Shown one piece after another: positions 3,814 to 34,039 of a stretch of DNA of 34,039 nt. This DNA comes from a virus. The stretch is taken from the IMG/VR virus record IMGVR_UViG_3300046167_000074, positions 1-34,039 of that record; one strand, written 5' to 3'. Position 1 is the stretch's first letter. Every line of letters begins with the position of its first letter. The position numbers and the translations under genes were made by a program. The notes beneath the pieces were generated by a model. The model was not told where the DNA came from. It did not search any database and saw only the letters and a program-made list of their open reading frames with translations.

Positions 3814-3924
3814 TCAAAATATTATAGCGACTAGCGCCATCAGGCCGGCTCCAGAAACAAATCCTACAAGGGCGCCTACCAGGCCAGCTATGTGGATCTC
3901 ATGTTCTGTGAATTTACTTTTCAT
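3814..3924 (-). CDS. 36-aa single-span membrane protein
   Basis: This short gene reads MKSKFTEHEIHIAGLVGALV then GFVSGAGLMALVAIIF-stop. A charged N-terminus of about 11 residues precedes one glycine-rich transmembrane helix (residues about 12-36). Its start overlaps the stop of the DUF6378 gene by 11 bases, which strongly supports translation as part of the operon. A diverged C-terminal remnant at 3278-3310 keeps the protein sequence while changing codons, independent evidence that it is real. The function is unknown; small phage membrane peptides often inhibit host processes or exclude other phages. Confidence 0.65.
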   Translation of the reverse strand: MKSKFTEHEIHIAGLVGALVGFVSGAGLMALVAIIF

Positions 3925-4183
3925 TTGTCATCATCTCCCCTGCCAATGCAGCATAACCGCAAATATCTGTCCATGTATCATCTTTGCTTGGTGACGTTAA
4001 TGTACGCTGCACCTTGCTCAGTATATACATGTTGGCAACATCCATAGGACTAACAGCCACATCAAGATAAGATGTCCAAAGCCGAGCAATGCGCTTGAAC
4101 GATTCATCTGCCGGCCCATAATCGTCAGCCCTTTCGGTGCTGATTATGCGCGCGGCTTCTTTCAGTATTTCATCTCTTGTCAT
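3914..4183 (-). CDS. DUF6378 domain protein (MazG-like)
   Basis: An 89-aa protein starting MTRDEILKEAARIIS. The blocks TERADDYGPADESFKRIARLW, then SYLDVAVSPMDVANMYILSK, then DTWTDICGYAALAGEM match the DUF6378 family of phages and bacteria, a compact all-alpha domain related in layout to MazG-type nucleotide pyrophosphohydrolases. The activity is not established here. The conserved domain starts exactly at this ATG, which overlaps the end of the upstream gene by 14 bases, so I prefer it to a longer frame beginning at 4255. The position in the leftward, probably early, operon would suit a role in nucleotide pools or alarmone signalling, but that is inference. Confidence 0.75.
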   Translation of the reverse strand: MTRDEILKEAARIISTERADDYGPADESFKRIARLWTSYLDVAVSPMDVANMYILSKVQRTLTSPSKDDTWTDICGYAALAGEMMTNEK

Positions 4184-4562
4184 TTTTAAACCTTCTTTCA
4201 ATCCCGTCACGCGGCAGATTGTATTGCTTGACGGCCCGATCATAAGCGATCTCACTTATGTGCAGAACGTCCATGATTTGTGATTTGTTCAAGTCTAACT
4301 TGAGCAGGTAATTAACAGACCAAGCAGTGCGGGTGACTACAATGTTGCGCTTGAGCGGCTGGCTCTTAATGTAATCCCGAGCCTTGGATGCAGACGCCAA
4401 GCGCCTGTCGATCTTTTCAATTGTATTCTTGCCACCGCATTGCTTTTCGTTTCTTTTGGCGTTCAGCCTCATCAAGGCGCCCACCTCTGCCTCAGTGGGT
4501 TCCCGATTAAATGCGCGTTTAAATGACATGACGTTTATTTCAACGTCTACTACTTTGACCAT
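4170..4562 (-). CDS. Hypothetical protein with HTH-like C-terminal region
   Basis: A 130-aa basic protein. The middle is charged (NAKRNEKQCGGKNTIEKIDR) and the C-terminal part reads LLKLDLNKSQIMDVLHISEI then AYDRAVKQYNLPR, which has the helix-turn-helix cadence of a small DNA-binding domain (about residues 87-120). No named family is recognised. Its ATG overlaps the upstream stop in the form ATAATGG, so it is translationally linked to the upstream gene. A regulator is a reasonable guess only. Confidence 0.6.
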   Translation of the reverse strand: MVKVVDVEINVMSFKRAFNREPTEAEVGALMRLNAKRNEKQCGGKNTIEKIDRRLASASKARDYIKSQPLKRNIVVTRTAWSVNYLLKLDLNKSQIMDVLHISEIAYDRAVKQYNLPRDGIERRFKNDKR

Positions 4563-4834
4563 TATATATTGTATCCTTTTTTTCTAAGGTCAGATGTGTA
4601 TTTCTTCAGATCACGCTGGGCAATCTGAAGCTCATTAACAATGCTCGGCCTCGCGTCCTGCCGATACCGCTCGTCTTGCAGGCGATCCACTTGAGTGCGC
4701 AGGTATTGCAGTATGGCCTGATCGGCAGGAGTTAGTTCGCTCACCACCACCCCCATACAATGCCTGCGATCCATACGTTTGCAGCGAACAAACGCGCTGA
4801 CAATAATTACATAGTCTTCCCAATCAGCTTTCAT
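4562..4834 (-). CDS. Small hypothetical protein with coiled-coil C-terminus
   Basis: A 90-aa protein. The N-terminus is short and hydrophobic with two cysteines (DYVIIVSAFVRCKRMDRRHC), and the rest is a long charged helix (ADQAILQYLRTQVDRLQDER and QIAQRDLKKYTSDLRKKGY). It overlaps the upstream gene by 11 bases and the downstream start by 1 base. An internal ATG at MGVVVSELTP could give a 64-aa, purely helical form. No function is known. Confidence 0.55.
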   Translation of the reverse strand: MKADWEDYVIIVSAFVRCKRMDRRHCMGVVVSELTPADQAILQYLRTQVDRLQDERYRQDARPSIVNELQIAQRDLKKYTSDLRKKGYNI

Positions 4835-5042
4835 CTGTCATCTCCTTCAGTAACTGCTCAAAATTTTTGCGGGTTGCAATTGCGGTTTGCAGCATGGCTG
4901 CTTCCATTCCTATGTCGGCGCTGGCCGATGATGATCGGACACCTTCTCCATAGTATTTTTTTAGTTCGTCAATGACCTTTAATTTATTGTCAATGAAACT
5001 AGTCTCTTTGGCAATTGCGGATTTGATTTCGTCGATTGTCAT
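4824..5042 (-). CDS. Small helical hypothetical protein
   Basis: A 72-aa protein, helical throughout: MTIDEIKSAIAKETSFIDNK leads to KLKVIDELKKYYGEG, a Ser/Ala hinge, then AAMLQTAIATRKNFEQLLKE. A good ribosome-binding site (AAGGGAG, 8 bases before the ATG on the minus strand) supports the start. It overlaps the next gene by 11 bases. Unrecognised; the pattern of two helices joined by a flexible hinge suggests a small binding protein. Confidence 0.6.
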   Translation of the reverse strand: MTIDEIKSAIAKETSFIDNKLKVIDELKKYYGEGVRSSSASADIGMEAAMLQTAIATRKNFEQLLKEMTDES

Positions 5043-5054
5043 GTGGTTCTCCCT

Positions 5055-5219
5055 TTATATTAAGTCTACGCCAACAATAATAATGGCGACATGAATTGCG
5101 GCAATAAAGAATACAATGCTTGTTTCCGCCCAAGCCCCCATTCCCCTGAATGCTACATAGGCAATGAGGCAGGACAGCAAACCAGTTGCAATCCCACTGT
5201 AGATAAAGAAATCAAGCAC
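5055..5219 (-). CDS. 54-aa two-span membrane protein (GTG start)
   Basis: Starting from a GTG two bases after the preceding stop, the frame reads LDFFIYSGIATGLLSCLIAY then VAFRGMGAWAE then TSIVFFIAAIHVAIIIVGV. This gives two hydrophobic helices (about residues 3-23 and 33-52) joined by a short loop containing an arginine. The tight fit between neighbours, leaving only 12 bases before the next ATG, supports it. Unknown function; a small inner-membrane protein made with the leftward operon. Confidence 0.55.
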   Translation of the reverse strand: MLDFFIYSGIATGLLSCLIAYVAFRGMGAWAETSIVFFIAAIHVAIIIVGVDLI

Positions 5220-5221
5220 AA

Positions 5222-5428
5222 TCAATTGCCCCACATTTCTTTTGCGATTTGTTCGCCAGACTTGTTGGGATTGCGGATCAATCGGTCGCTAATGCGCAAC
5301 AACTCATCTTCATCTTTTGCGTAAATGCCTACGTTACCGTTTGAGTGCTGGACTGCGTAGCAGTCGTCACCAAAATCAACAATGATGTTTGCGCCTTCAA
5401 ACTGAATTGCTGTCATCTTTAAGATCAT
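5222..5428 (-). CDS. First gene of the leftward operon, small hypothetical protein
   Basis: A 68-aa acidic protein. A beta-rich first half (TAIQFEGANIIVDFGDDCYA then VQHSNGNVGIYAKDEDELLR) is followed by a helical end (ISDRLIRNPNKSGEQIAKEM). The ATG at 5428 has GGGGAA about 8 bases upstream; a second ATG four codons in is less well placed. It is the promoter-proximal gene after the four-palindrome divergent control region, so it should be among the first products made from the leftward promoter. Unrecognised. Confidence 0.6.
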   Translation of the reverse strand: MILKMTAIQFEGANIIVDFGDDCYAVQHSNGNVGIYAKDEDELLRISDRLIRNPNKSGEQIAKEMWGN

Positions 5429-5461: not shown

Positions 5462-5490
5462 CATATAGAATATTGCTAGCAACTTTGCAA
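5462..5490 (-). promoter_or_regulatory. Leftward sigma70-like promoter
   Basis: On the minus strand, TTGCAA (5490-5485) is followed after exactly 17 bases by TATATG (5467-5462), about 35 bases before the first gene's ATG. One TTGCTAGCAA palindrome (5473-5482) lies within the spacer, so a bound repressor would block polymerase. Confidence 0.55.
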
Positions 5491-5561
5491 TACCTTTGCT
5501 AGCAAAAAATTACACTTGATAAAAATAATTGCTAGCACTATGTATGGTGAATGACTAGCAA
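5473..5561. promoter_or_regulatory. Operator cluster: four TTGCTAGCAA palindromes
   Basis: The 10-bp palindrome TTGCTAGCAA occurs exactly at 5473-5482 and 5496-5505, with one mismatch at 5529-5538 (TTGCTAGCAC), and as a degenerate copy at 5552-5561 (TGACTAGCAA). Centre-to-centre distances are 23, 33 and 23 bases, close to two and three helical turns, so the sites would lie on similar faces. The first and third sites lie within the spacers of the two divergent promoters. The natural candidate ligand is the ribbon-helix-helix-like protein encoded immediately to the right. Confidence 0.75.
5516..5544 (+). promoter_or_regulatory. Rightward sigma70-like promoter
   Basis: TTGATA (5516-5521) and TATGTA (5539-5544) are separated by 17 bases. 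The third palindrome (5529-5538) fills the end of the spacer and abuts the -10. Transcription would enter the small regulator gene at 5575 and the replication genes beyond it. Confidence 0.5.
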
Positions 5562-5574
5562 CCCTGGGGGAACT

Positions 5575-5757
5575 ATGAAACAGAAGAAAGAGCAGTGGAA
5601 CCACCGCATCAAGTGTGAGCTTGCTGACGGCATGCGCGTTCTGCAAGAGAACCGTGCAAAGATGGATGGGCAAGACCCAACCCTGCGCGATCTAACTGAA
5701 GAAGCAATATTCTTCTTTCTCAATTTTAACGGCATCAAGATCCGAGATCAGGTATGA
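5575..5757 (+). CDS. Small ribbon-helix-helix-like protein, candidate regulator
   Basis: A 60-aa protein. HRIKCEL could form the DNA-contacting strand, ADGMRVLQENRAKMDG the first helix, and TLRDLTEEAIFFFLNF the second, which is the order and size of a ribbon-helix-helix (Arc/MetJ/CopG-type) repressor. The ATG has GGGGG 4 bases upstream. An alternative ATG at 5551 would add eight residues but overlaps the fourth palindrome. The gene is the first on the rightward transcript and directly adjoins the four TTGCTAGCAA sites, so autoregulation plus control of the leftward operon is a reasonable inference. The stop overlaps the next start (ATGA). The fold assignment is by pattern only. Confidence 0.55.
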   Translation: MKQKKEQWNHRIKCELADGMRVLQENRAKMDGQDPTLRDLTEEAIFFFLNFNGIKIRDQV

Positions 5758-6225
5758 CAGTCTTTGTCGGCATAGACCCAGGCTTCACTGGTGCAATTGC
5801 ATTCTACTGGCCCGACAGCAACAGCGTCGAGGTGTATGACATGCCGGTTTACAAAAACATCAAAGGCAAGACAGAGCTGAACCTGTATGAGCTGCACGAA
5901 ATCTTAAAGCCAGAAGGTGATGAGCCGCACCACGTTATATTGGAGCAGGTCAGTGCCTGTAAGAGGCAACGGTGTCAGTAGCATGTTTAGATTCGGCCAA
6001 GCCTACGGCGCCACTCAGATGGCAATCGCAGCACACAAGCTGCCGATGACATTGGTAACGCCAGCCAAGTGGAAGTCATGCCTTGGCCTTAACAAAGACA
6101 AAGGCCTCAGCAGATCACTTGCCAGCCAGAGATGGCCTGCACAAGCTGACCTGTTTAAACGTGTCAAAGACGATGGCAGAAGTGAGGCCTGTCTCTTGGC
6201 CCTATATGGAAAGCTAACAGCATGA
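5754..6225 (+). CDS. RuvC-like Holliday-junction resolvase, frame-broken
   Basis: The N-terminal part (MTVFVGIDPGFTGAIAFYWP ... HVILEQVSA) and the C-terminal part (RGNGVSSMFRFGQAYGATQM ... DDGRSEACLLALYGKL) are in different frames and join near 5957-5965 if one extra base is removed. The product is about 156 aa, the normal size for phage RuvC-like RNase H-fold resolvases, which cut branched DNA before packaging. Catalytic acids visible are D8 (GIDPG), the E of LEQVS and the D and E of DDGRSEA near the C-terminus. It follows the regulator with a 4-base overlap and precedes the RecB-like nuclease with another (ATGA). The frame break is probably a sequencing error. Confidence 0.8.
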
Positions 6226-6971
6226 ACGGTTTTGAAAAGCACGGCATCAAGCACCTGTCAGCATCATCAATCAACCTCTGGGCCAACGCCCCCGACGTTT
6301 GGGTTGCGTCATACCTATTCAAGAAGCGCACACCTATGGGCGCTGCTGCCATGCGTGGCATCTGCACAGAAGATGCTGTTGCCAACACACTGACCGGCAA
6401 GCTGCACAAAGCCGGCGCGCTGGATCAGGCATTGGAAAAGTTTGACAGCATGTTCTTCATGGCTGACGAAAAGATCACCAAAGAGCGCGCCATGATTGAG
6501 CCGTGCATGGAGCTAACACTCCAAGAGCTTGAGCATTACGGCAAGCCTGAGTTTCCTGAAGACGGGCAAACAAAGATCAGCATCACAGCCAAGACAGATG
6601 ACTTCGAGATCCCTGTGATCGGCTACCTTGACTTTGTGTTCCCCGATCATGGCGTTGTCATCGATCTAAAAACAACAGGACGCATCCCAAGCAAGATGTC
6701 GCCAGAGCATCAACTGCAACGCGCGATCTATCAAAAAGCCCGTGGCAACCAGGTGGTCAAGTTTCTTTATGTGTCATCAAAGAAAACCAACATGCTTGAA
6801 GACGGCGATCCAACAGAGATCCTTGGCAAGGCCAAGAAGCAGATCGCTCGGCTAGAAAAGTTCCTGCGCTCAGGCAGCGCGGAAGATATTAGAGAGGTCA
6901 TACCCGTCAACCCTAACACGTTCTACTGGAACGGGGCAGAAGATCTGCGGGAAGAAATGTATGGCATCTAA
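6222..6971 (+). CDS. RecB/Cas4-like PD-(D/E)XK nuclease
   Basis: A 249-aa protein of the PDDEXK_1-type (Cas4/RecB-like) superfamily. The N-terminus has the LSASSINLW motif; the catalytic core contains D137 (VIGYLDFVF), D148 and K150 (VVIDLKTTG), and the QxxxY motif at Q166-Y170 (QRAIY). No helicase domain is attached, so it resembles stand-alone phage exonucleases that process DNA ends for recombination or replication. It overlaps the resolvase gene by 4 bases and precedes the SSB-like gene, forming a recombination module. I see no four-cysteine Fe-S cluster as in Cas4. Confidence 0.85.
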   Translation: MNGFEKHGIKHLSASSINLWANAPDVWVASYLFKKRTPMGAAAMRGICTEDAVANTLTGKLHKAGALDQALEKFDSMFFMADEKITKERAMIEPCMELTLQELEHYGKPEFPEDGQTKISITAKTDDFEIPVIGYLDFVFPDHGVVIDLKTTGRIPSKMSPEHQLQRAIYQKARGNQVVKFLYVSSKKTNMLEDGDPTEILGKAKKQIARLEKFLRSGSAEDIREVIPVNPNTFYWNGAEDLREEMYGI

Positions 6972-7700: not shown

Positions 7701-9890
7701 ATGAAAATGGAAGTGGAAGAACAAATGGAAATGGCTCCCAAAACCGAAATCATTAAGCAGTTCATAGCACAGATCACAGAAAATTGGAACACTGTGGGCC
7801 AACCGCTCATAGAGATACGTTCTATATCGCAATCTGGATCAGCAAACGCCGCAAGATTTGCACTAAAAAACATCGAAGACGCAGCACAACACGCCCAGGC
7901 AATGAACGAAGCCAAGCAAAACATCTACATGTGCATCAATCCAATTGACCCAATCATAGAGATACCAGCAGGCCAAGCCGCCAAAGACACAGACATCCTA
8001 GCCGCGTTCTATTGCTTTGCAGACGCAGACACAGCAGGCGCAATGGAAAACATCCTGTCTTTCGCCGGCCCAAAGTTCACAATGTCGATCAAGACAGGAA
8101 CAACGCCATTCGCAAGAGGCCACGCATACTGGCAGCTCGAAGAGCCAGTGCAAAACATGCAAGCATGGCGTGACGTACAAAAAGCAATCGCCGCCTCGCT
8201 CCAAACAGATGCAGCAGTCATCAACCCATCACGCATCATGCGCGTGGCAGGCACAGTCTCATGGCCCAACAAAAAGAAACAAGACAAAGGATACGTCCCA
8301 GAGCTGGTCACAATGCGGACAGAGTTCTCAACAGACAGAGAGCCTGTCGAATTTGAACGCATGATGCGCGCATTCCCAAAAACAGAGCCACAGGCTGCTA
8401 GCACAATGAGCATAGACCTCGGCCAGCAAGCAATGGACAGGCAACTGGCAGTCCAGAATGTGCTAGCAGGCGAGGATTGGCATCACAATATGGTGCGCCT
8501 GGTTGGATCATACGTTAACAAAGGCCTAGCAGACGAAGAGATCCACGCAATCACAGATGGCTTCACCCTGGGCGGCTACACAGTGGACGAAACAAGGGCA
8601 GAGGTGCAGAAGGCAATCGACGGGGCCAGAGCAAAAGGCTGGACGCCACCGCCAGACCCAGCAGCCGAGCGCATGGAGCAGCAGAACCAGACACTGCAAG
8701 TAGCCACAGAGCCAACACAGAGCTACACAGAGCCTGATACAGGCAATGAATGGCCCACGCCCTACGAAATGTTTGATGCGCTCACACTGCCCCGCAGAGA
8801 GTGGGTCTATGGATACGACTACATCAAGAAGTATATCAGCGTCACAGCATCTGCCGGCGGCATAGGCAAGACATCCGCAATCATTGTGGAAGCACTGGCA
8901 ATATCGACAGGCAAAGACCTGCTTGGCGTAAGGGTCAAGGAGCAGTGCAACACCTGGGTCATAAATTTGGAAGATCCTATCTCAGAACTCCAAATGAGAA
9001 CCATAGCAGCCATGCAGCACTATGGCCTCACGCCAGATGACATCAAAGGAAAGCTGTTCATGGATGGCGAGGACACCATGCAGATCACGCTGGCAGCAGA
9101 AGGAAGGGACGGCCTGATCCAGAACGATGAGCTGCTGGCATTTATGATCCGCAAGATCAAAGAAAAAAATATAGGTGTCGTAATATTAGATCCCTTCATA
9201 TCTGCCCATCTGGTCAATGAGAATAATAATGGAAGCATCCAGGCAGTCGTAGCAATGCTCAGGAAGCTGGCAAGAGACACCAACAGCTCAGTACAGCTCG
9301 TGCATCACATCCGTAAAGGCAACGGAGAAGACGCAACAGTGGACTCAGTGCGCGGTGCAGGCAGCCTGATCGGTGCAGCAAGAGCAGCAAGAGTGATAAA
9401 CAGGATCACTCCAGAAGACGCAATGGCACTCGGGGTGGACGAACAAGAGGCGCTTGGCATCTTCCGCCAGGACGATGGCAAGGCAAACCTCGCACCGCCA
9501 TCAGACAAGGCAACATACCGCCGTATGATCTCAGTCGAAATCGCAAACTCTGAGCTGATTGGTGTAGCCACAGAGTTCAAACTTCCTAATTTATTCGACG
9601 GCGTAACAGCCAAAGACCTGTACGATGTCCAAAGAACAGTCGGCAAGGCAGAGGAAAACGATAAGGCATACCGCTCAGACATCAGAGCAAAGAACTGGAT
9701 CGGCAATGCAGTCGCAGAACAGCTCGACCTCGACACAGAAAAGCCAGGGGACAAAGCAAAGGCAAAGGCAATCGTCAAGAAGTGGATCAGCACAGGCAAC
9801 CTCAAAGTCGCAGAGATAAGAGACAGCCGAAGCGGAAGAGATGTGCCGTGCGTAGTGGTCGGTGAATGGATCAATTGGGAGGAAGTTTGA
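7701..9890 (+). CDS. Primase-helicase (RepB-like primase plus RecA-like helicase)
   Basis: A 729-aa, two-domain replication protein. Residues about 60-230 resemble the RepB/archaeo-eukaryotic primase fold: D108 and D110 in CFADADTAG, H141 in RGHAYWQL, and INPSRIMRVAGTVSWP. Residues about 355-590 are a RecA-like ATPase of the RepA (RSF1010)/AAA_25 type, with Walker A at 385-391 (AGGIGKT), Walker B at about 493-499 (VVILDPF), a VHHIRKG motif and a possible arginine finger in RGAGSLIGAARAARV. It would synthesise primers and unwind DNA. The ATG has a strong GGGGAGGA site 4 bases upstream. No DNA polymerase is encoded nearby, so the product probably loads host polymerase. The repeat region immediately downstream is the candidate origin. 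Confidence 0.85.
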   Translation: MKMEVEEQMEMAPKTEIIKQFIAQITENWNTVGQPLIEIRSISQSGSANAARFALKNIEDAAQHAQAMNEAKQNIYMCINPIDPIIEIPAGQAAKDTDILAAFYCFADADTAGAMENILSFAGPKFTMSIKTGTTPFARGHAYWQLEEPVQNMQAWRDVQKAIAASLQTDAAVINPSRIMRVAGTVSWPNKKKQDKGYVPELVTMRTEFSTDREPVEFERMMRAFPKTEPQAASTMSIDLGQQAMDRQLAVQNVLAGEDWHHNMVRLVGSYVNKGLADEEIHAITDGFTLGGYTVDETRAEVQKAIDGARAKGWTPPPDPAAERMEQQNQTLQVATEPTQSYTEPDTGNEWPTPYEMFDALTLPRREWVYGYDYIKKYISVTASAGGIGKTSAIIVEALAISTGKDLLGVRVKEQCNTWVINLEDPISELQMRTIAAMQHYGLTPDDIKGKLFMDGEDTMQITLAAEGRDGLIQNDELLAFMIRKIKEKNIGVVILDPFISAHLVNENNNGSIQAVVAMLRKLARDTNSSVQLVHHIRKGNGEDATVDSVRGAGSLIGAARAARVINRITPEDAMALGVDEQEALGIFRQDDGKANLAPPSDKATYRRMISVEIANSELIGVATEFKLPNLFDGVTAKDLYDVQRTVGKAEENDKAYRSDIRAKNWIGNAVAEQLDLDTEKPGDKAKAKAIVKKWISTGNLKVAEIRDSRSGRDVPCVVVGEWINWEEV

Positions 9891-14042: not shown

Positions 14043-14258
14043 ATGCTTATTAAGAAAAAGAAACTTAGCAACATTGCAGGGATTATGGGCGGTAATGCCG
14101 CCCAGCCTGCTGCGTTGATGGGGCAATCGACTGTAGATCCTTTGGAGCGCGCGCAGCAAAAGATGGCTGGTCGGACGCAAGGCGGTGCGGTTGAAGGCGT
14201 TAAGGATTCCAAGTCGCGTCCTAAGCGCACACTGATGACAAGTTATGGGATGAAATAA
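14043..14258 (+). CDS. Small basic hypothetical protein upstream of the portal
   Basis: A 71-aa basic protein (MLIKKKKLSNIAGIMGGNAA ... QQKMAGRTQG ... PKRTLMTSYGMK). It ends one base into the portal start (TAATG). The lysine-rich beginning and the position suggest a minor head-associated or DNA-binding protein, unproven. A TTG at 14031 would add four residues but lacks support. Confidence 0.55.
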   Translation: MLIKKKKLSNIAGIMGGNAAQPAALMGQSTVDPLERAQQKMAGRTQGGAVEGVKDSKSRPKRTLMTSYGMK

Positions 14259-15861
14259 TGGCAGAAGTAAAACCTTTAGTCGCTCGGTTAGATAAGCGAT
14301 ACAAGACGTTACAAAGCCAGCGATCCAATTGGGAGTCCCACTGGCAGGAGCTTGCTGATTTTATGCTGCCTCGTAAGGCGGATATTACCAAGAAGCGAAC
14401 CCAGGGCGATAAAAGAACTGATAGGATTTTCGACGGCACGGCTATTCATGCTGTTGAGTTATTGGCGTCTTCGTTGCACGGCATGTTGACTTCGCCAAGT
14501 ACTCCTTGGTTTTCAATGCGTTACCGAGACACTGCCTTGCAGCGTGACGATGCTGCTAATGAGTGGTTGGAAACCTGCATGGATCAGATGTACCAGCACT
14601 TCAATCGGCTCCAACTTCCAGCAAGAGATCCATGAGCTGTATTATGATTTGGTTGTTTTTGGCACGGGGTCTTTTTACGTTGAGTCTGAAGAGGGCGGTT
14701 TGCGTTTTGCGTGCCGCCACATTGCCGAGGTTTGCATAAGCGAAGATCCTTCTGGCCGGGTTGATACTGTTTACCGCAAGTTCAAGCTGACGGCTCGGGC
14801 GATTGCCATGCAGTTCCCTAATGTTAAGATGCCTCGCCAGGTAGAAAAAGACTTGAAGGATGATCCCATACAAGGAGCATCAAGTCATTCATGCTGTTTT
14901 CCCGCGCAACGAGGCGTCTGGAAAGTTAGCCAAGAACAAGCCTGTTGCGTCTGTTTATTATTTGGCTGACAATCGTGAGCTGCTTTCCGAGGGTGGCTTT
15001 GACGAATTTCCGTTTATGTGTCCGCGCTTTGTAAAAGACAGCGTCTCTACTTACGGCAGATCGCCGGCGATGACTGCCTTGCCTGACGTTAAGATGTTGA
15101 ATAAGATGTCTGAAACTACAATCAAGGCGGCTCAAAAGCAGATTGACCCGCCTTTGATGGTTCCAGATGACGGCTTTATGATGCCTGTGCGTACTACACC
15201 AGGCGCGTTAAACTTTTACCGCTCGGGGACACGGGATCGTTTGGAGCCTTTGAACATTGGCGCAAACAATCCTTTGGGCTTGAACATGGAAGAGCAGCGC
15301 CGAAATGCAATCCGTCAAGCTTTTTATGTGGATCAGTTGCTGTTAGGCCAAGGCGCCAACATGACAGCGACTGAGGTATTGCAGAGGAACGAGGAGAAAA
15401 TGCGTTTGCTCGGGCCTGTTTTGGGGCGTTTACAAGCCGAGCTTCTCCAGCCGCTGATCGACCGTTCCTTTGCTTTACTTCTTAGAGCAGGCTTGCTTCC
15501 AGAGCCGCCTGAAGAGCTGCAAGGCCAAAACATTGATATTGAGTACGTTTCTCCGCTTGCCAAAGCTCAGAAGCTTACAGATCTGCAAGCGATGCTGCGC
15601 GGGTTTGAGATCTTGCTGCAAGTTAGTGAGGTTGCGCCTGTTACTGATTACTTGGACGGCGACAAGATGGTTCAGTATTTGGTTGAGACAGCAGGCTTGC
15701 CGGCTCGGGTTATCAGGGGTTCTGATGAGGTTGAGCAGGTTCGCAAGGAGCAGGCCGAGCAGGCCCAGGTTCAGGAGCAGATGCAGCGTGAGATGATGGC
15801 GTCTGAGGCTGCTGGCAATGTTGCGCCTTTGGTTAAGGCCACTCAGGGTGGTGGTCAATGA
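14258..15861 (+). CDS. Portal / head-tail connector protein, two frame breaks
   Basis: Three frames join into one ~533-aa head-tail connector of the T7 gp8 type. N-terminal: LVARLDKRYKTLQSQRSNWE, LPRKADI, DRIFDGTAIHAVELLASSLH, LTSPSTPWF. Middle: SNFQQEIHELYYDLVVFGTG. C-terminal: VIHAVFPR, MTATEVLQRNEEKMRLLGPV, GRLQAELLQPLIDR. The junctions lie near 14615 (AATCGGCTCC) and 14866 (a CCC run), each cured by removing one base; the total of 1604 bases agrees. Twelve copies form the vertex ring through which DNA enters and leaves. The last part, with YVSPLAK then a Gln/Glu-rich helix (VRKEQAEQAQVQEQMQREMM), is typical. Breaks are almost certainly sequencing errors, since the gene is essential. Confidence 0.92.
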
Positions 15862-20867: not shown

Positions 20868-21383
20868 ATGTTTGAGATCTTAACGCTAGGGGCAACAATC
20901 TTTGGTGGTATGAGCGCAAAAAGCTCTGCGAACAAAGCTGCTGCCGCTGCTGCAAGAGTAGGTGAGTTTAACGCTGGCCTAATTGAGCGAGACATTGATC
21001 TACTTGAAAAGCAACGTGAGATTATTAACCGCAATGCAGTTTTGCAGGAGCGCGTTGATCGGTTTCGTTTTAGAGAAGCTCAGGGTTCTGTTGTCGCTCA
21101 GTACAGCGGCGCTGGCATAGACATATCTCACGGCACTCCAATGCGAGTTATGCGTCAGGCTGCGCGAGAGTTTGAATATGACCAAGCTATTAATGACTTT
21201 AATAACACGGTCACAAACATGCAGATCAACGATCAGCAAGAAAGTTCTAGGCTGAGTGCTGAATTGTCACGCATGGAAGGCGGGGCGCAGGCTGCTGGTC
21301 TAAGAGCGCAAGGCACAACTAGCTTGATCCAGAGTTTTGGAACGGCAGGCCGGTTTGCTTCTTCTAGTGGAATGTTCGCATAA
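20868..21383 (+). CDS. Internal virion / ejection protein A (T7 gp14-like)
   Basis: A 171-aa protein. It begins with a hydrophobic, glycine-rich segment (MFEILTLGATIFGGMSAKSS), followed by an Ala-rich helix (NKAAAAAARVGEFNAGLIER) and long helices (RFREAQGSVVAQYSGAGIDI, then SHGTPMRVMRQAAREFEYDQ). This is the pattern of small internal core proteins placed after tail tube B, which are ejected to form the outer-membrane part of the DNA channel. The ATG has GAGGTG 7 bases upstream. Intact. Confidence 0.8.
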   Translation: MFEILTLGATIFGGMSAKSSANKAAAAAARVGEFNAGLIERDIDLLEKQREIINRNAVLQERVDRFRFREAQGSVVAQYSGAGIDISHGTPMRVMRQAAREFEYDQAINDFNNTVTNMQINDQQESSRLSAELSRMEGGAQAAGLRAQGTTSLIQSFGTAGRFASSSGMFA

Positions 21384-23169
21384 TGAGAATACCAGTTTAT
21401 AAATCACAGGGCCGTCCAACTTCTGAAGCCCCCGGCGCCCGCATCACAGCTAGGATGAATGCCCAGCCTTTTGTCCAGGCTGAATTGCAGAAGGGCGCTA
21501 TTGCAACAGAGGTTGCGAACCAGGTTGGTGAGTATGCCAACATGCGCTATAAGATGATTACTGAGACACAAAAGAACGAGGCGATCTTTTCAGCCAAAGA
21601 AGGCTTGATGGCTTTGTCTAGCCAGCTCGAAAAAGACAGGGATGTCGGAAACATTTTTGACGGTGAGCTTAAATATGCGCAGGGCGTCAAAAGCGTTTAT
21701 GATACGATGCGATCTACTGTTGGCAAAAACAAATACGCGCTGCAAGACTTTGACAACAGCTTCCGCCAAATGGAAATACCTATCAAGTTTAGGCTGCAAG
21801 AGGTTGTTGATCTAAAGATTGAAAAGCGCAGGCAGGCTGCACTGAAGGCTCGGGAAGACCAGCAGGTTTCTATTTACTCTAATCCCTACCTGGACATTAC
21901 ATCTGATGAGCTTGCTATGGAGCAGTCCCAACTACAGGCTATGGTTGAGCAAGCTGTTAGAAACGGGGGTGTGAACCCAGAAATTATGGGCAATGTCACC
22001 CAAAAGGTTTTGTCAAAGGCTTTTAAAAACCTTGTTCCAGCATACGCAGGCACTGACTTAAACAAGGCAATAGGTCTTTCATCGGTTTTGAGCCAGATTG
22101 AAATGGTGCGTAGTGGTAAAATGAGCGCGGGAGACATGGTCGGGATTTCCACCTTGCCGCCTCATGTTCTGAATATGCTTATGGCTGTGCCGGCTGAAGA
22201 GGCCAATGCAGTTGTGCAGGACACAATACAGATGGCCTCTACGTTCTTTACCGCTCAAGAAAAAATAGACGATGAGCGGGAAGAGGAAGCAGGTAAATCA
22301 AACACAAAGGCTTTCAATCTTGTTGTTTCTTTAGACAGCACAGACACTGTGTCTGGGGCTACGCTGCGGCAGGTACTAGACCCCATTGATATGAAAAAGA
22401 TTGACGACAATTTTCAATCGGTGCGCGGACCTGGGGAAGATTTGATATTGTCAGGATCTCAGGCTCAAGTAATTCTATATGAAGGGCTAATGCGCCAGAT
22501 GTGGGCTACTCCTGCGCAGCAAGAAGCGATGGAAGAGGCTATGTCAGTTTCTGAAGCACCTACGGCCTTTAGGCCTGCCGGCAAAGGTGATGCAGTTGTC
22601 TATAGTGAGCTTTATGGAACGGCAGAAAATGGCATGCTGACAGTTGCAGATCTTAATGCCAAAGAGAAGCTCTTTGGACGTAGGCCAGTACAACGGCTTG
22701 CGGACAAAGATTGCAAATGAGGCGGATGAGGGGCTGGCTGTAGGTTCAGGGCTGCTTTCGCGGCATTTCCGTTATAATGCCCAAATGGCAATTGGAAAAG
22801 ATGACAGGCTTGCCCAAGCATCCAAAGCAGCTTTTGAGCAAGCTGACTTTGCTTTAAGAGATGAGTTTAGCCGCAGAGAGTCAGAAGGCAACCCTATGAC
22901 GCTAGCGGAAATTCGTCAGTTTGCTATGGAAAAAAGAGATGAGTTTGACGCTATCTATAGGGAAGAGTTAAGATCTGAGTATGTGGATTTCGTTGAAAGC
23001 AGATCGAGAGATTTGCCTGGGTTTGACTGTAGACATATCTGATCCCTTCGGCTCATTAGATGCTTGGTACAACGATTTAAACGCAGACGACCAGGCTAGA
23101 AGTAGAAACTCTTATTCCGTCTTCAAATCAATTTTAAGAGCTAGATACGCAAATCAGGGATTGTTCTAA
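21383..23169 (+). CDS. Internal virion / ejection protein B (T7 gp15-like), two frame breaks
   Basis: Three frames join into one protein of about 594 aa. It begins MRIPVYKSQGRPTSEAPGAR, with helical segments such as LQKGAIATEVANQVGEYANM and YDTMRSTVGKNKYALQDFDN. The second part, VGQYNGLRTKIANEADEGLA, is joined near 22671 (CTCTTTGG), and the last part, VDISDPFGSLDAWYNDLNAD, near 23025 (GGGTTTGA). Each junction needs removal of one base and the total length fits. The protein ends one base into the next start. Its place between gp14-like and larger ejection proteins and its all-helical composition support a gp15-type periplasmic tunnel subunit. Confidence 0.75.
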
Positions 23170-29100: not shown

Positions 29101-29401
29101 AATGGGCCAAATCAAACTTAGCTACGGCATGCAGTCTGACTTGGTAAATCTGGCAAAAAATGAAATTCGCATCGACACACTTGGTTTCGGAGTATTGGAT
29201 TTTAGGCAAACAATCATGGCTCTTACTGGATCTAGAGAATATCAAGGCCTTCCAGATAAAGTAAAAGTAAACGAGCTTCGTAAAATAAACCAGAAATTTA
29301 TAGAAGCAGGGTTCTTAGCGTTGCTTGAAAACCCAGAATATGCAAATATGCGGCAAGCATATGAGCAGGTCGAGCAGTTAAAAAACGAGGGTCGTAGATA
29401 A
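26112..29401 (+). CDS. Largest ejection protein (T7 gp16-like), four frame breaks
   Basis: Five frames join into one protein of about 1095 aa. Part 1 begins MAFDPNKVAQEQEAKQRITA and reaches KTKQMVHEAYLAGLLSSPAT, then QMKNVIGTTSFMLFQLPTEV, a hydrophobic region like the LPD38 segment of large phage virion proteins. Junctions lie near 27533 (giving MPISEDQVYMEDALL), 27783 (DEFTKTISQRGEF), 28495 (ANN to DYYKELPMLQG) and 28837 (NEVL to EYVTEVSALQ). Three need one base removed and one needs a base added, and the total length agrees. The last part is helical (LRLKRGDELENYEKELIRLQ) and ends with YEQVEQLKNEGRR. By size and position it should span the inner membrane during DNA ejection. I see no lysozyme motif. 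Confidence 0.78.
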
Positions 29402-32400
29402 TGACAGTATCGAGCAGCACAAACCGAGCAAGTTATAGCGGCAATGGATCGCTTGCAACTTTTGCGTATGGCTTCAAGGTTTTCGACCAGGACGATCTAG
29501 CGGTTATTCTGAGAGCCAGCAACGGTACAGAAACCGTCCAGACGATTACAACCGATTACACTGTAACGGGTGTTGGCGATGTCGGGGGCGGCAACGTAGT
29601 GTTTGGCACTGCACCGGCGTCAGGTGTAACAGTCGTTATTTTGCGCGAGATGGACTTAGAGCAAGGGCTAGACCTGGTTCCTAACGATCCGTTCCCTGCT
29701 CAATCACTTGAGAACAGCCTGGACAAACTGACGTTTATGGTGCAGCAGCACGATGAACAGCTAGGTCGGACAATCCAAGCTTCTCGTACTAACGTGATTA
29801 CTGGATCTGAGTTTGTAATTTCTGCGGCGGATAGAGCGAACAAAGTCTTTGCCTTCGACAGTTCTGGTGACGTTTCGATCACGCAAGAAATAGGAACTTT
29901 CAGAGGAGATTGGGCTGCATCTACAGCATATGTAGAGCGTGACTTGGTGAAGGATACAACAACAAATAATGTGTTTATTGTTAACTCAGCACACACATCT
30001 TCAGGTTCTTTGCCGCTTACAACTAACACAAACAGTGCCAAGTATGAAAAAATAATTGATATTACTAACCCGCCTGGAGATCTTGCGGTTGGCGGCAACA
30101 TATCAACATCAGGATCTGTGACTGCTGGCAGCTTTGTTATTGGTTCTGCGGATATTAATGAAAACGACTTAGAAGCGATCGACAGCATTATTGCCTGGGA
30201 CAGTTGCGGCTAGCAAGGCAGTTGTTGTTGATGTTAACAAGGACATTTCTAGTTTTAGAAACTTGACTGCTACTGGTGACATTACGTTTGGCGGTTTGTC
30301 AGATGGTACAATCACAGTCACAGACATTCTTGATGAAGATGATCTGACATCTAACAGCGCAACATCATTAGCAACGCAACAGTCTATCAAGGCTTATGTT
30401 GATAGCCAGGTTGGCTCTTTTGATACGCTTGCGGAAATTCTATCAAACGGCAACACGACCGGCGGCACTAACATATCAGTTTCTACGGGCGATGATATTA
30501 AGTTTGCGGATGGTAGCCAAGCGATCTTTGGTGCTAGCGACGATTTACGCATCAATCATAACGGCTCTTATTCGTATGTTACAGACCTTGGGGAAGGCCC
30601 GTTATTCATTGGAGGAAACGAAGAAGTTTCCATTATGAACGGGCAGTTGAATGAGTATAAAATCAAAGCTGAGACAAACGGCGCAGTAACGCTTTACTAC
30701 GACAACGCAGTCAAAATGGCGACTACGAGTTTAGGTATTGACGTAACTGGCACGATTACATTTGACGGTGGTGAAACGACTGCTGATTTATATTTCGGAG
30801 ACAACGACAAAGCCATATTCGGCGCAGGGTCTGACCTACAGATTTACCATGATGGTTCTGCAAGCTACATAGAAGACGCAGGCCAAGGTAATCTACTGAT
30901 AAAAACAGATGGCACTAAGATTGCCTTGCAAGACGGCAGCGGTACTAACATGCTGCAAGCAAGAACCAATGGGGGTGTAGAGCTTGCGTATTTAGGCGCA
31001 AATAAACTCGCCACAAGCAGCACAGGGGTAGACATTTCTGGGACTTTGACCAGCGATGGGCTGACTGTGGCTCAAGGCAGTGGCGCAAATATATTGCTTG
31101 AGTCTACCACTACTGGCGCAACTACTGGTGACATCTTTGGTGAAATCGAGTTCAAGACTAATGACTCAAACAGCGCAGGTATAAAGGGTAAAATTGATTC
31201 ATATAGTGAAGGTGCGGTTGGGAACGGAGCTTTGCGTCTGTTTACTGGCGATACCACTGGTTTGTATCAGCGCATGAACATTGCCTCTAACGGCGACATC
31301 TCCTTCTACGAGGACACAGGCACCACGCCAAAGTTCTTCTGGGATGCGAGTGCGGAGAGGTTGGGGATTGGCACGAGTTCACCTACCTCTAAGCTGCACG
31401 TTAAGGGCAGAACAATCGCTGTTGATGGGGCTGCTGCTTCGGATAGCCCAAGACTTAATCTTGATCTAGATGGAACAAATAAAGCCTCAGTTTTCACAAT
31501 CGGTTGCTTCAATTGAATCGGGCTACCTTCAAGACTTTGTGTTTAAGACAGGCTCAACGGCCACAGAACGTATGCGCATCGACAGCAGCGGCAACGTAGG
31601 CATTGGGACGAGTTCGCCTACAAACGGAAAGCTAGAAGTCACACATTCTAGTAGCACGGTTCCCGCTGGCTTCTTTAGAAACACAAGTGGCAGTGGTGAT
31701 AGCCCAGCTTTAACAGTGCAGGGCGGCGCAAACAACGCTGCACCAAACTTTAGTGTACTTGATTACAATGGAAACACTGATTTTGTTGTTCAAGGCCTAG
31801 GCAACGTAGGGATTGGTACGAGTTCGCCTAGGGTAGCTTTAGATGTAGATGGTGAAGTAGCCATAGCCTACAATGCAAACTACGGTATGAGATTTTACAA
31901 TCAGCCTAATAATAACTGGTCAAGCATCGGCAATAATCACACTAGCTCAGGCGCTAATTTGGTCTTCAAGGATGCTTCAGGAGAAGCCTTTAGGCTGGAT
32001 GGAAGCGGCAACCTGCTTGTGGGTAAGACTGTTCAGAGCATTGGCACTGATGGTGTAACAATAGTTAATGGTCAGATTACAGCTACAGCAGATGGCGCAG
32101 ATGCTATTCGCCTAAACCGCAAAACATCGGATGGCAGCATCATTGATTTCCGCAAAGACGGCTCCACTGTGGGGAGTATTAGCTCAAGAAATGGCGAAGC
32201 TATATCGATTCATTCAGGGTCAGTTGGGATCGAATTTAACCCAAGCAATCAGGTTAATCCTTCTAATGGTTCTGCTCCTTTAGATAATACATTAGATTTA
32301 GGAGCTTCTGGAACACGTTGGGACGACATCTACGCCACCAACGGCACTATCCAAACATCTGACCGCAACGAGAAGCAGGACATCGAAGTTCTCTCTGATG

Positions 32401-32744
32401 CTGAAACTCGTGTAGCACAGGCTTGCAAGGGTCTACTCCGCAAGTTCCGCTGGCAGGATGCTGTAGCTGAAAAGGGTGACGATGCCCGTATCCACTTCGG
32501 TATCATCGCACAGGACTTGCAGGATGCTTTCACTGCTGAGGGCTTGGACGCTGGCCGCTACGCCATGTTCATCTCTAGCACTTGGTGGGAAGCCACTGAG
32601 ACCTACACGGATGACGATGGCGTTGAGCAGACCCGCACCAACACATACGAGACACTTGAGGCGGCTCCAGCAGGTGCCACAGAACGTACCCGCCTTGGTG
32701 TCCGCTACCCTGAACTACTCGCATTTATCATTGCCACAATCTAA
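29401..32744 (+). CDS. Tail fibre with T7-type N-terminus and S74 chaperone, two frame breaks
   Basis: Joined, this is about 1113 aa. The N-terminus (ASYSGNGSLATFAYGFKVFD, then LVPNDPFPAQSLENSLDKLT) matches the tail-binding domain of T7-type fibres. The shaft repeats beta-strand units such as DLQIYHDGSASYIEDAGQGN and three NVGIGTSSPT-type units. The C-terminal ~128 residues are an Intramolecular chaperone auto-processing (S74) domain beginning at SDRNEKQDIEVL, with the catalytic Ser codon at 32358-32360 and Lys five residues on, then HFGIIAQDLQDAF. It trimerises the fibre and then cuts itself off. Junctions lie near 30190 (AIDSI to PGTVAASKAVV) and 31505 (FTI to VASIESGY). It recognises the host surface. 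Confidence 0.88.
31590..31830. repeat. 31-bp imperfect repeat in the fibre shaft
   Basis: GGCAACGTAGG-ATTGG-ACG followed by AGTTCGCCTA occurs at 31590-31620 and 31800-31830 with two mismatches; a weaker third copy is at 31361-31384. Each encodes a NVGIGTSSP-type beta-turn unit. Near-identity at the DNA level would allow recombination that lengthens or shortens the shaft. Confidence 0.7.
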
Positions 32745-32756
32745 AGGATAATCACG

Positions 32757-33067
32757 ATGACAACTTACACATGGCAGATCGCCAACATGGAACGCAACAC
32801 AGCCGACGATGGAGTGGTTGTTTGCCACTGGCGTTGCACAGGCGTTGACGGGGATCACTCTGCGTCATCCTACGGGACAACATCACACACGCCTGACCCA
32901 TCGGCTGCGGACTTTGTGCCTTACGCTGACCTGACCGAAGCAACAGTATTGGGCTGGGTTCACGCTGCGGTAGTGTATCACAGGAAGATACGGAAGCTGC
33001 TATTGCTGACAAGATTGATGCAATGGCAAACCCAACCGAAGCCTCTGGAACACCTTGGGCTGCTTAA
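32757..33067 (+). CDS. DUF7936-like fibre-adjacent protein (copy 2), frame-broken
   Basis: This allele of the gene at 4-312 starts MTTYTWQIANMERNTADDGV and has HWRC, VDGDHSASSYGT and TPDPSAADFVPYADLTEA. Near 32965 (GCTGCGGTAGTG) the frame breaks; adding one base restores VSQEDTEAAIADKIDAMANP to the TAA at 33065. It directly follows the fibre gene by 12 bases, with AAAGGATAATCACG as its leader. About 40% of residues differ from copy 1 in the N-terminal two thirds, so the two ends carry different alleles rather than simple duplicates. Function unknown, probably tail-associated. Confidence 0.65.
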
Positions 33068-33089
33068 CTTAACTTAAAAGGAGATCACG

Positions 33090-33305
33090 ATGGCCGAAGA
33101 CAAAAAGGTAATCACGATTGACGAAATCGAGTACACTGAAGACCAACTGTCCGATGAGGCGAAGGTCTGCATTAATCACATTGGTTCGCTGGATCAAAAG
33201 ATTGGTTCAGCCCAGTTTAATTTGACTCAGCTACAGGGTGGCCGTGAGTTCTTTATGGCACGACTGAAGACGGCTCTGGAGATAACGGAAGAAGAAGATG
33301 GATAA
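33090..33305 (+). CDS. DUF6447-like small acidic protein (copy 2)
   Basis: Identical to the product at 335-550 except Ala for Thr at residue 2. AAAAGGAGAT lies 4 bases upstream. It belongs to the terminal redundancy, so it is probably not a second gene in the circular map. Confidence 0.75.
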   Translation: MAEDKKVITIDEIEYTEDQLSDEAKVCINHIGSLDQKIGSAQFNLTQLQGGREFFMARLKTALEITEEEDG

Positions 33306-33492
33306 ACGTACAGTGGCTTCGGCTCATGAGCGAATTGATGGCTTGGAAAAGGAAGTGATTGCTATGCAAACAGAAATGCGAATCCAATTCAAAGATCTGT
33401 TTGGCCGTGTCAAGCGCATGGAAGCAATCATGATCGGCACAACAGGCTTTATCATTGCACTCTTAGTCGCCGTGCTGACTAAGATGGGCTGA
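33298..33492 (+). CDS. XhlA-like membrane protein (copy 2)
   Basis: The protein is identical to that at 543-737; one silent base differs in the HERID codons (GCGG against GCGA). Part of the terminal redundancy. Confidence 0.65.
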   Translation: MDKRTVASAHERIDGLEKEVIAMQTEMRIQFKDLFGRVKRMEAIMIGTTGFIIALLVAVLTKMG

Positions 33493-33496
33493 CAAA

Positions 33497-33970
33497 ATGA
33501 TTGACCCGGTAACAGCGGTCGGTCTAGCTACTAGCGCATTTAATATTCTAAAGCAGGGTATAAGTGCAGGCAAAGACATCCAAGAAATGAGCGGAACCCT
33601 AGCTAAATGGGGCTCCGCTTTTTCTGATTTTCAGTATGCTGAAGACAAAACAAAGAACCCTCCGTTCTACAAGATGATGTCTGACAATAGCGCCAATGCT
33701 ATTGAAATCTTTGCTCATAAAAAAAAGATGGAGGCTATGCGTAAAGAGATTAAGGATCATATCTCATGGACGTATGGCCCCTCTGCGTGGGAGGAGGTTC
33801 TCGCTATAGAAGGTGAGATGCGTAAGATACGCAGGGAAGAAGCTTACAAAAAACAAGAGATGATAGACAACGCTATCAACTATACCCTTGGTGCAATTAT
33901 ATTTGTCATTGCGGGGGCTGGTATAGTGACAGGCTTTTATTATCTTGGTCGCTATCAGGGTAAGTGGTAA
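33497..33970 (+). CDS. 157-aa C-terminal TM protein (copy 2)
   Basis: Same protein as at 742-1215, offset by exactly 32755 bases. Part of the terminal redundancy. Confidence 0.75.
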   Translation: MIDPVTAVGLATSAFNILKQGISAGKDIQEMSGTLAKWGSAFSDFQYAEDKTKNPPFYKMMSDNSANAIEIFAHKKKMEAMRKEIKDHISWTYGPSAWEEVLAIEGEMRKIRREEAYKKQEMIDNAINYTLGAIIFVIAGAGIVTGFYYLGRYQGKW

Positions 33971-34039
33971 TGTGGGTGTTAATCTGGTTCCAAGTAATTA
34001 ATAACAACATTGAGCATTATCAACTCAATCAGTTCACTA
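33970..34039 (+). CDS. 54-aa hypothetical protein (copy 2, cut by window end)
   Basis: The first 23 codons of the gene at 1215-1379, again starting on a TAATG overlap; the window ends before its stop. Confidence 0.6.
   Translation, partial: MWVLIWFQVINNNIEHYQLNQFT

Follow-up and report, generated by a model that had tools for sequence, protein, structure and literature searches.

A predicted autorepressor of 60 amino acids and four candidate operators between divergent operons in a relative of the HTVC010P-group phages

A marine virus of bacteria (IMG/VR record IMGVR_UViG_3300046167_000074; the whole stretch of 34,039 nucleotides is called the window here) carries four palindromes between a leftward and a rightward operon, and the first gene of the rightward operon encodes a protein of 60 amino acids. 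Judged from the sequence, this protein probably represses its own operon and also the opposite accessory operon by means of dimers bound along the array, a reading to which we give a probability of about 0.78. It would provide relatives of the HTVC010P group with a concrete, testable candidate regulator and a set of operators. The large terminase of the window has its best matches in HTVC010P-group pelagiphages (50–58% identity). The phage is a relative of that group, whose members are reported to be abundant in the sea (PMC5039313, PMC10504331). The GC content of the window is 48.7%, compared to about 32% in HTVC010P-group phages and, therefore, the host is probably not SAR11. Domain searches of the window detected neither a phage integrase nor an HTH_3 (CI-type) domain, in agreement with the original prediction, which had seen no integrase and no CI-type repressor.

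The operator array and its promoters

The features of the control region and of the flanking operons are as follows.

3914–5428, minus strand: leftward accessory operon with open reading frames at 5222–5428, 5055–5234, 4824–5042, 4562–4834, 4170–4562 and 3914–4255 (the last a DUF6378 protein in Pfam)
5462–5490, minus strand: predicted leftward promoter; −35 TTGCAA (5490–5485), 17-bp spacer holding O1, −10 TATATG (5467–5462)
5473–5482, no strand assigned: candidate operator O1; exact TTGCTAGCAA in a sequence scan, within the leftward promoter spacer
5496–5505, no strand assigned: candidate operator O2; second exact TTGCTAGCAA in the scan, directly upstream of the leftward −35
5516–5544, plus strand: predicted rightward promoter; −35 TTGATA (5516–5521), 17-bp spacer holding O3, −10 TATGTA (5539–5544)
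5529–5538, no strand assigned: candidate operator O3; TTGCTAGCAC, one mismatch to TTGCTAGCAA, within the rightward promoter spacer and abutting its −10
5552–5561, no strand assigned: candidate operator O4; TGACTAGCAA, degenerate with two mismatches to TTGCTAGCAA, at about +1 of rightward transcription and immediately 5' of the ribosome-binding site
5575–5757, plus strand: putative DNA-binding autorepressor of 60 amino acids, probably ribbon-helix-helix (RHH), with a QWNHRI motif and homologous loci
5754–6225, plus strand: RuvC-like Holliday junction resolvase, whose gene directly follows that of the regulator (phrog_1770, E = 7e-11 and 9e-16)
6222–6971, plus strand: PD-(D/E)XK nuclease of the rightward operon (PF12705, E = 3.5e-7)
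7701–9890, plus strand: primase/helicase-like protein of the rightward replication block (PF13481, E = 1.5e-31; phrog_906, E = 5e-37)

The four copies of one palindrome that had been predicted were found at their positions with start-to-start spacings of 23, 33 and 23 bp, two of them perfect and two degenerate. Sites with at most two mismatches were not enriched in the window as a whole (30 observed versus 27.8 expected); four such sites within 90 bp occurred in 0 of 300 dinucleotide shuffles, where the maximum was three. O1 to O4 lie roughly on the same side of the helix and form a lattice of about 11.5 bp, and cooperative binding of neighbouring dimers is therefore probable.

The original prediction also placed two palindromes in the 17-bp spacers of opposite-facing promoters and, indeed, O1 and O3 are so placed, albeit between weak hexamers: both promoters match the consensus at just 8 of 12 positions, and a generic promoter scan of the window reported neither the leftward nor the rightward pair. 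The geometry recurs in relatives, with consensus matches of up to 10 of 12. There, the hexamers stand 17 bp apart, with a constant placement relative to O3 and, for most loci, also to O1. The rightward −35 reads TTGxxx (TTGATA, TTGATT, TTGCAA, TTGCAT or TTGTAA) in all 22 tabulated loci and the rightward −10 reads TATxxx in 21 of these 22. The leftward −10 is TAxxxx, and the leftward promoter is TTGACA-17-TATATA in locus L340 and TTGACA-17-TAGATT in L067; in lineages with altered operator spacing the leftward geometry differs. The candidate operators overlap the predicted promoter of the regulator's own gene as well as the predicted opposite promoter, the arrangement that characterizes a divergent-promoter autorepressor of a phage.

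From the computed sites, their conservation, geometry and linkage to the gene, we infer fold, binding, repression, cooperativity and timing as follows. The repressor, probably of the Arc/Mnt type with an RHH fold, would be the product of the gene that opens the rightward operon for replication and recombination, and its dimers would occupy the four palindromes with GCTAGC at their centre. On the right, autorepression would result from dimers that cover O3 in the −35/−10 spacer and O4 at the start point; on the left, dimers over the spacer (O1) and the DNA immediately 5' of the −35 (O2) would turn down the accessory operon, adjoining dimers probably binding cooperatively. Upon entry of the phage DNA, transcription would be free, and with accumulation of the protein it would fall in both directions.

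The 60-amino-acid protein

Since a longer ATG at 5551 is missing in most relatives, in which site 4 is CGACTAGCAA, position 5575 was taken as the start codon. Residues Q7, W8, N9, H10, R11 and I12 are invariant in 22 aligned homologues. In an HMM alignment, which with an E-value of about 9 is not significant alone, QWNHRI was aligned to QFNLRW of P22 Arc and matched Arc residues Q9, N11 and R13, which are known to contact DNA. No RHH family match to the protein was found in Pfam, NCBIfam or PHROGs, and the Arc family (PF03869) was absent from the window at E ≤ 10. Two AlphaFold2 monomer models were of low confidence (pLDDT 73–74, pTM 0.35–0.46) and helical throughout; helices 14–29 and 37–51 fit RHH helices A and B and, within this low confidence, a helix replaces the expected N-terminal strand. 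A structure search of the PDB with both models gave no match. Of the original prediction of an RHH-like protein of 60 residues, the length was borne out for the open reading frame at 5575–5757; its RHH-like nature found no match in the family libraries and only low-confidence helical models.

A bridge to known RHH proteins is provided by locus L160, whose protein has a QLNTRI motif, three palindromes of the same type and a VapB-type RHH match (9e-5); the 60-amino-acid protein aligns weakly to this RHH-like protein in an HMM alignment. Furthermore, FitA-like RHH antitoxin genes have pairs of TTGCTAGCAA upstream of them in L222, L250 and L262; the first two genes were matched by Pfam (1.9e-16 and 1.4e-18) and the third was assigned by sequence. 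Like the putative RHH gene described here, the small genes for these antitoxins, which control their own toxin-antitoxin promoter, have the palindromes in their promoter, but they have a single promoter and a toxin partner, whereas here the promoters are divergent, a toxin partner is missing and the strand residues differ. Because of the similarity of the invariant QWNHRI to Arc QFNLRW, the L160 bridge and the pairs in front of FitA-like genes, we favour an RHH fold with reasonable though limited confidence. Membership of the RHH superfamily is likely, not established; by function, the protein is predicted to be an Arc/Mnt-type phage autorepressor.

Conservation and variation among relatives

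Among IMG/VR uncultivated viruses, 58 loci encode the protein in full length, and in a 59th the gene is truncated by the end of its contig. Since many of the full-length loci are closely related, they do not amount to 58 independent events. Identity of the homologues to the window protein drops to about 48%. No homologues were found in deposited phages and no close ones in bacterial genome contigs. The original prediction had tied the operators of the divergent control region to this gene and named their absence from relatives retaining both operons as evidence against the proposal. It withstood this search: at least four CTAG-centred sites lie within about 105 bp upstream of the gene in 55 of the 58 loci, and the three loci lacking them have a rebuilt regulator. 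In 16 non-redundant loci of the common geometry the CTAG cores are invariant (conservation 1.0), and mean column conservation is 0.93 within the sites versus 0.76 between them. One lineage (L030/L031/L054) has CTGCTAGCAG at O1, a symmetrical change on both arms.

The spacing between sites shifts in helical steps among lineages. It is 23/33–34/23 in most loci, 12/44–46/12 in L070, L075, L076 and L078 and 22/34/13 in L077, while L059 and L073 have an extra site midway between O3 and O4. In a post hoc test, the distinct spacings followed a period of 10.5 bp (P about 0.0004).

In the three exceptions (L341, L342 and L355), the 60-amino-acid domain is the C-terminal part of a protein of about 197 residues. 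Its middle is of the T5orf172/MUG113 (GIY-YIG) type, as found in a scan of the identical protein of L079, and its N-terminus, a putative RHH that resembles a second DNA-binding domain, weakly matched a transcriptional-repressor PHROG (E = 0.022). These loci lack the four-site array and retain one CTAG; TGTGCAA direct repeats surround both promoters in L341 and L355, the two sequences inspected. Operators therefore co-occur with the gene for the small protein (55 of 58 loci) and change with the regulator (the three fusions).

In more distant relatives, the same gene slot is occupied by another small protein of similar size, and the GCTAGC array was not found in them. Of six slot proteins scanned, those of L084, L090 and L104 matched Pfam RHH families (NikA-like or TacA1) above the cut-off (E < 1e-6), and those of L081, L092 and L095 had NikA-like matches below it (1e-4 to 2e-3). 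Like the 60-amino-acid gene, the slot genes of L081, L084, L090 and L095 are directly upstream of the RuvC-like gene, and those of L092 and L104 lie upstream of the nuclease at a distance of no more than about 1.3 kb; unlike it, they have no GCTAGC palindromes, and their products have no detectable sequence homology to it. Profile comparisons of the 60-amino-acid protein with the slot RHH proteins were negative.

On the other side, the first leftward gene is different in most relatives. No leftward gene of the window is universal (maximum 21 of 34 loci) whereas the 60-amino-acid gene is present in 34 of 34, and the promoter region is thus a constant socket for variable leftward accessory genes. 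On the leftward side, a promoter that stays constant is followed by an accessory operon that varies. The re-spaced, extra-site and swapped-operator variants form a natural series in which the joint evolution of a small repressor and its sites can be studied. It is conceivable, if doubtful, that the array is a repressor lattice in which dimers fill a grid of about 11.5 bp over back-to-back promoters, operators are moved by helical steps and the fusion swaps the whole set; if so, these phages would be a natural record of the stepwise rewiring of a genetic switch.

Known systems and alternative explanations

The layout of the control region matches that of P22 immI and, by analogy, it would also work like immI. 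In both, a small protein is encoded directly downstream of divergent promoters; in P22, the Arc operator is in a −35/−10 spacer and the Mnt operator is near the rightward start point. The Q-x-N-x-R strand motif aligns with Arc, albeit without significant sequence homology. In P22, Mnt acts as a repressor of arc and ant, and Arc reduces mnt and has a moderating effect on ant (PMC11016777). Unlike immI, with two proteins and two unlike operators, the window has one protein and four copies of one operator, and its rightward genes are replication genes, whereas the antirepressor is on the right in P22.

That the protein is an activator, or a direction switch which represses one promoter and activates the other, is unlikely. 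The position of O2 just 5' of the leftward −35 would be compatible with activation, as would the weak consensus match of both promoters, but O1 and O3, in the promoter spacers, and O4, around +1, are in positions that normally block RNA polymerase, P22 Pant uses the same operator positions, and one site in the spacer and one beside the ribosome-binding site are also found in a separate small family (the L122 family, see below). Repression by the 60-amino-acid protein is thus preferred. This protein need not be the binder, since its binding is deduced from the computed linkage: a host regulator or a product of the leftward operon could bind the palindromes next to a gene that is merely a neighbour. 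A faint HTH-like match in the leftward product 4170–4562 (E = 0.12) and the presence of TTGCTAGCAA pairs in other genomes agree with this. We consider it quite unlikely, however, since none of the leftward genes is universal among the relatives (at most 21 of 34), the array is absent exactly in the three loci in which the 60-amino-acid domain is fused, and distant relatives with another slot gene lack the GCTAGC array.

Far less probable is a role of the repeats as part of a replication origin, as a packaging signal or as structural DNA. The region is AT-rich and upstream of replication genes, in keeping with such a role, but the sites are at fixed offsets from the promoter hexamers, change together with the adjacent regulator and recur beside FitA-like antitoxin RHH genes in bacterial chromosomes. 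Operators of the 60-amino-acid repressor remain the preferred reading of the palindromes.

Two control palindromes were searched as pairs. TTGTCGACAA pairs were found at only 4 loci, 3 of them near RHH-like genes, and therefore an association of paired palindromes with RHH genes is not unique to GCTAGC; TTGCATGCAA pairs were found at 12 loci, none near RHH genes by eye. Other occurrences of TTGCTAGCAA were rejected as candidates: pairs 32 bp apart, widespread in viral contigs, are apparently a coding repeat of an unrelated phage protein (L109 was inspected), repeats with a 21-bp period in MAGs of Spirochaetaceae and Planctomycetaceae resemble repeat arrays, and further intergenic pairs (e.g. 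L139, L225, L227, L240, L242, L248, L249, L264 and L280) have no evident adjacent RHH gene. The deposited phages HTVC010P, HTVC034P, Greip and HTVC028P contain no TTGCTAGCAA anywhere, and the divergent regions inspected in them gave no convincing palindromic repeat. A literature search for the palindrome gave top-ranked matches unrelated to phage regulation, and a search for HTVC010P combined with ribbon-helix-helix found no paper among those covered.

A small conserved family (GQFSVSxxREKL; L122, L152, L189, L238, L261, L277 and L286) occurs in viral contigs and Clostridia-like genomes. Its genes have paired TTGCTAGCAA sites at their own promoter and no Pfam RHH match; a profile comparison with the 60-amino-acid protein was negative.

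The window itself has a direct repeat of about 1.2 kb at its ends (76–1284 versus 32825–34038; 95% identity, 51 mismatches, 9 gaps), which is either a terminal redundancy or an overlap in an error-bearing assembly. Genes at 5754–6225, 14258–15861, 21383–23169 and 29401–32744 are split by apparent frameshifts; the first, the RuvC-like gene, is in two parts (5754–5981 and 5917–6225) and intact with 155–157 amino acids in relatives and, therefore, sequencing indels are suggested.
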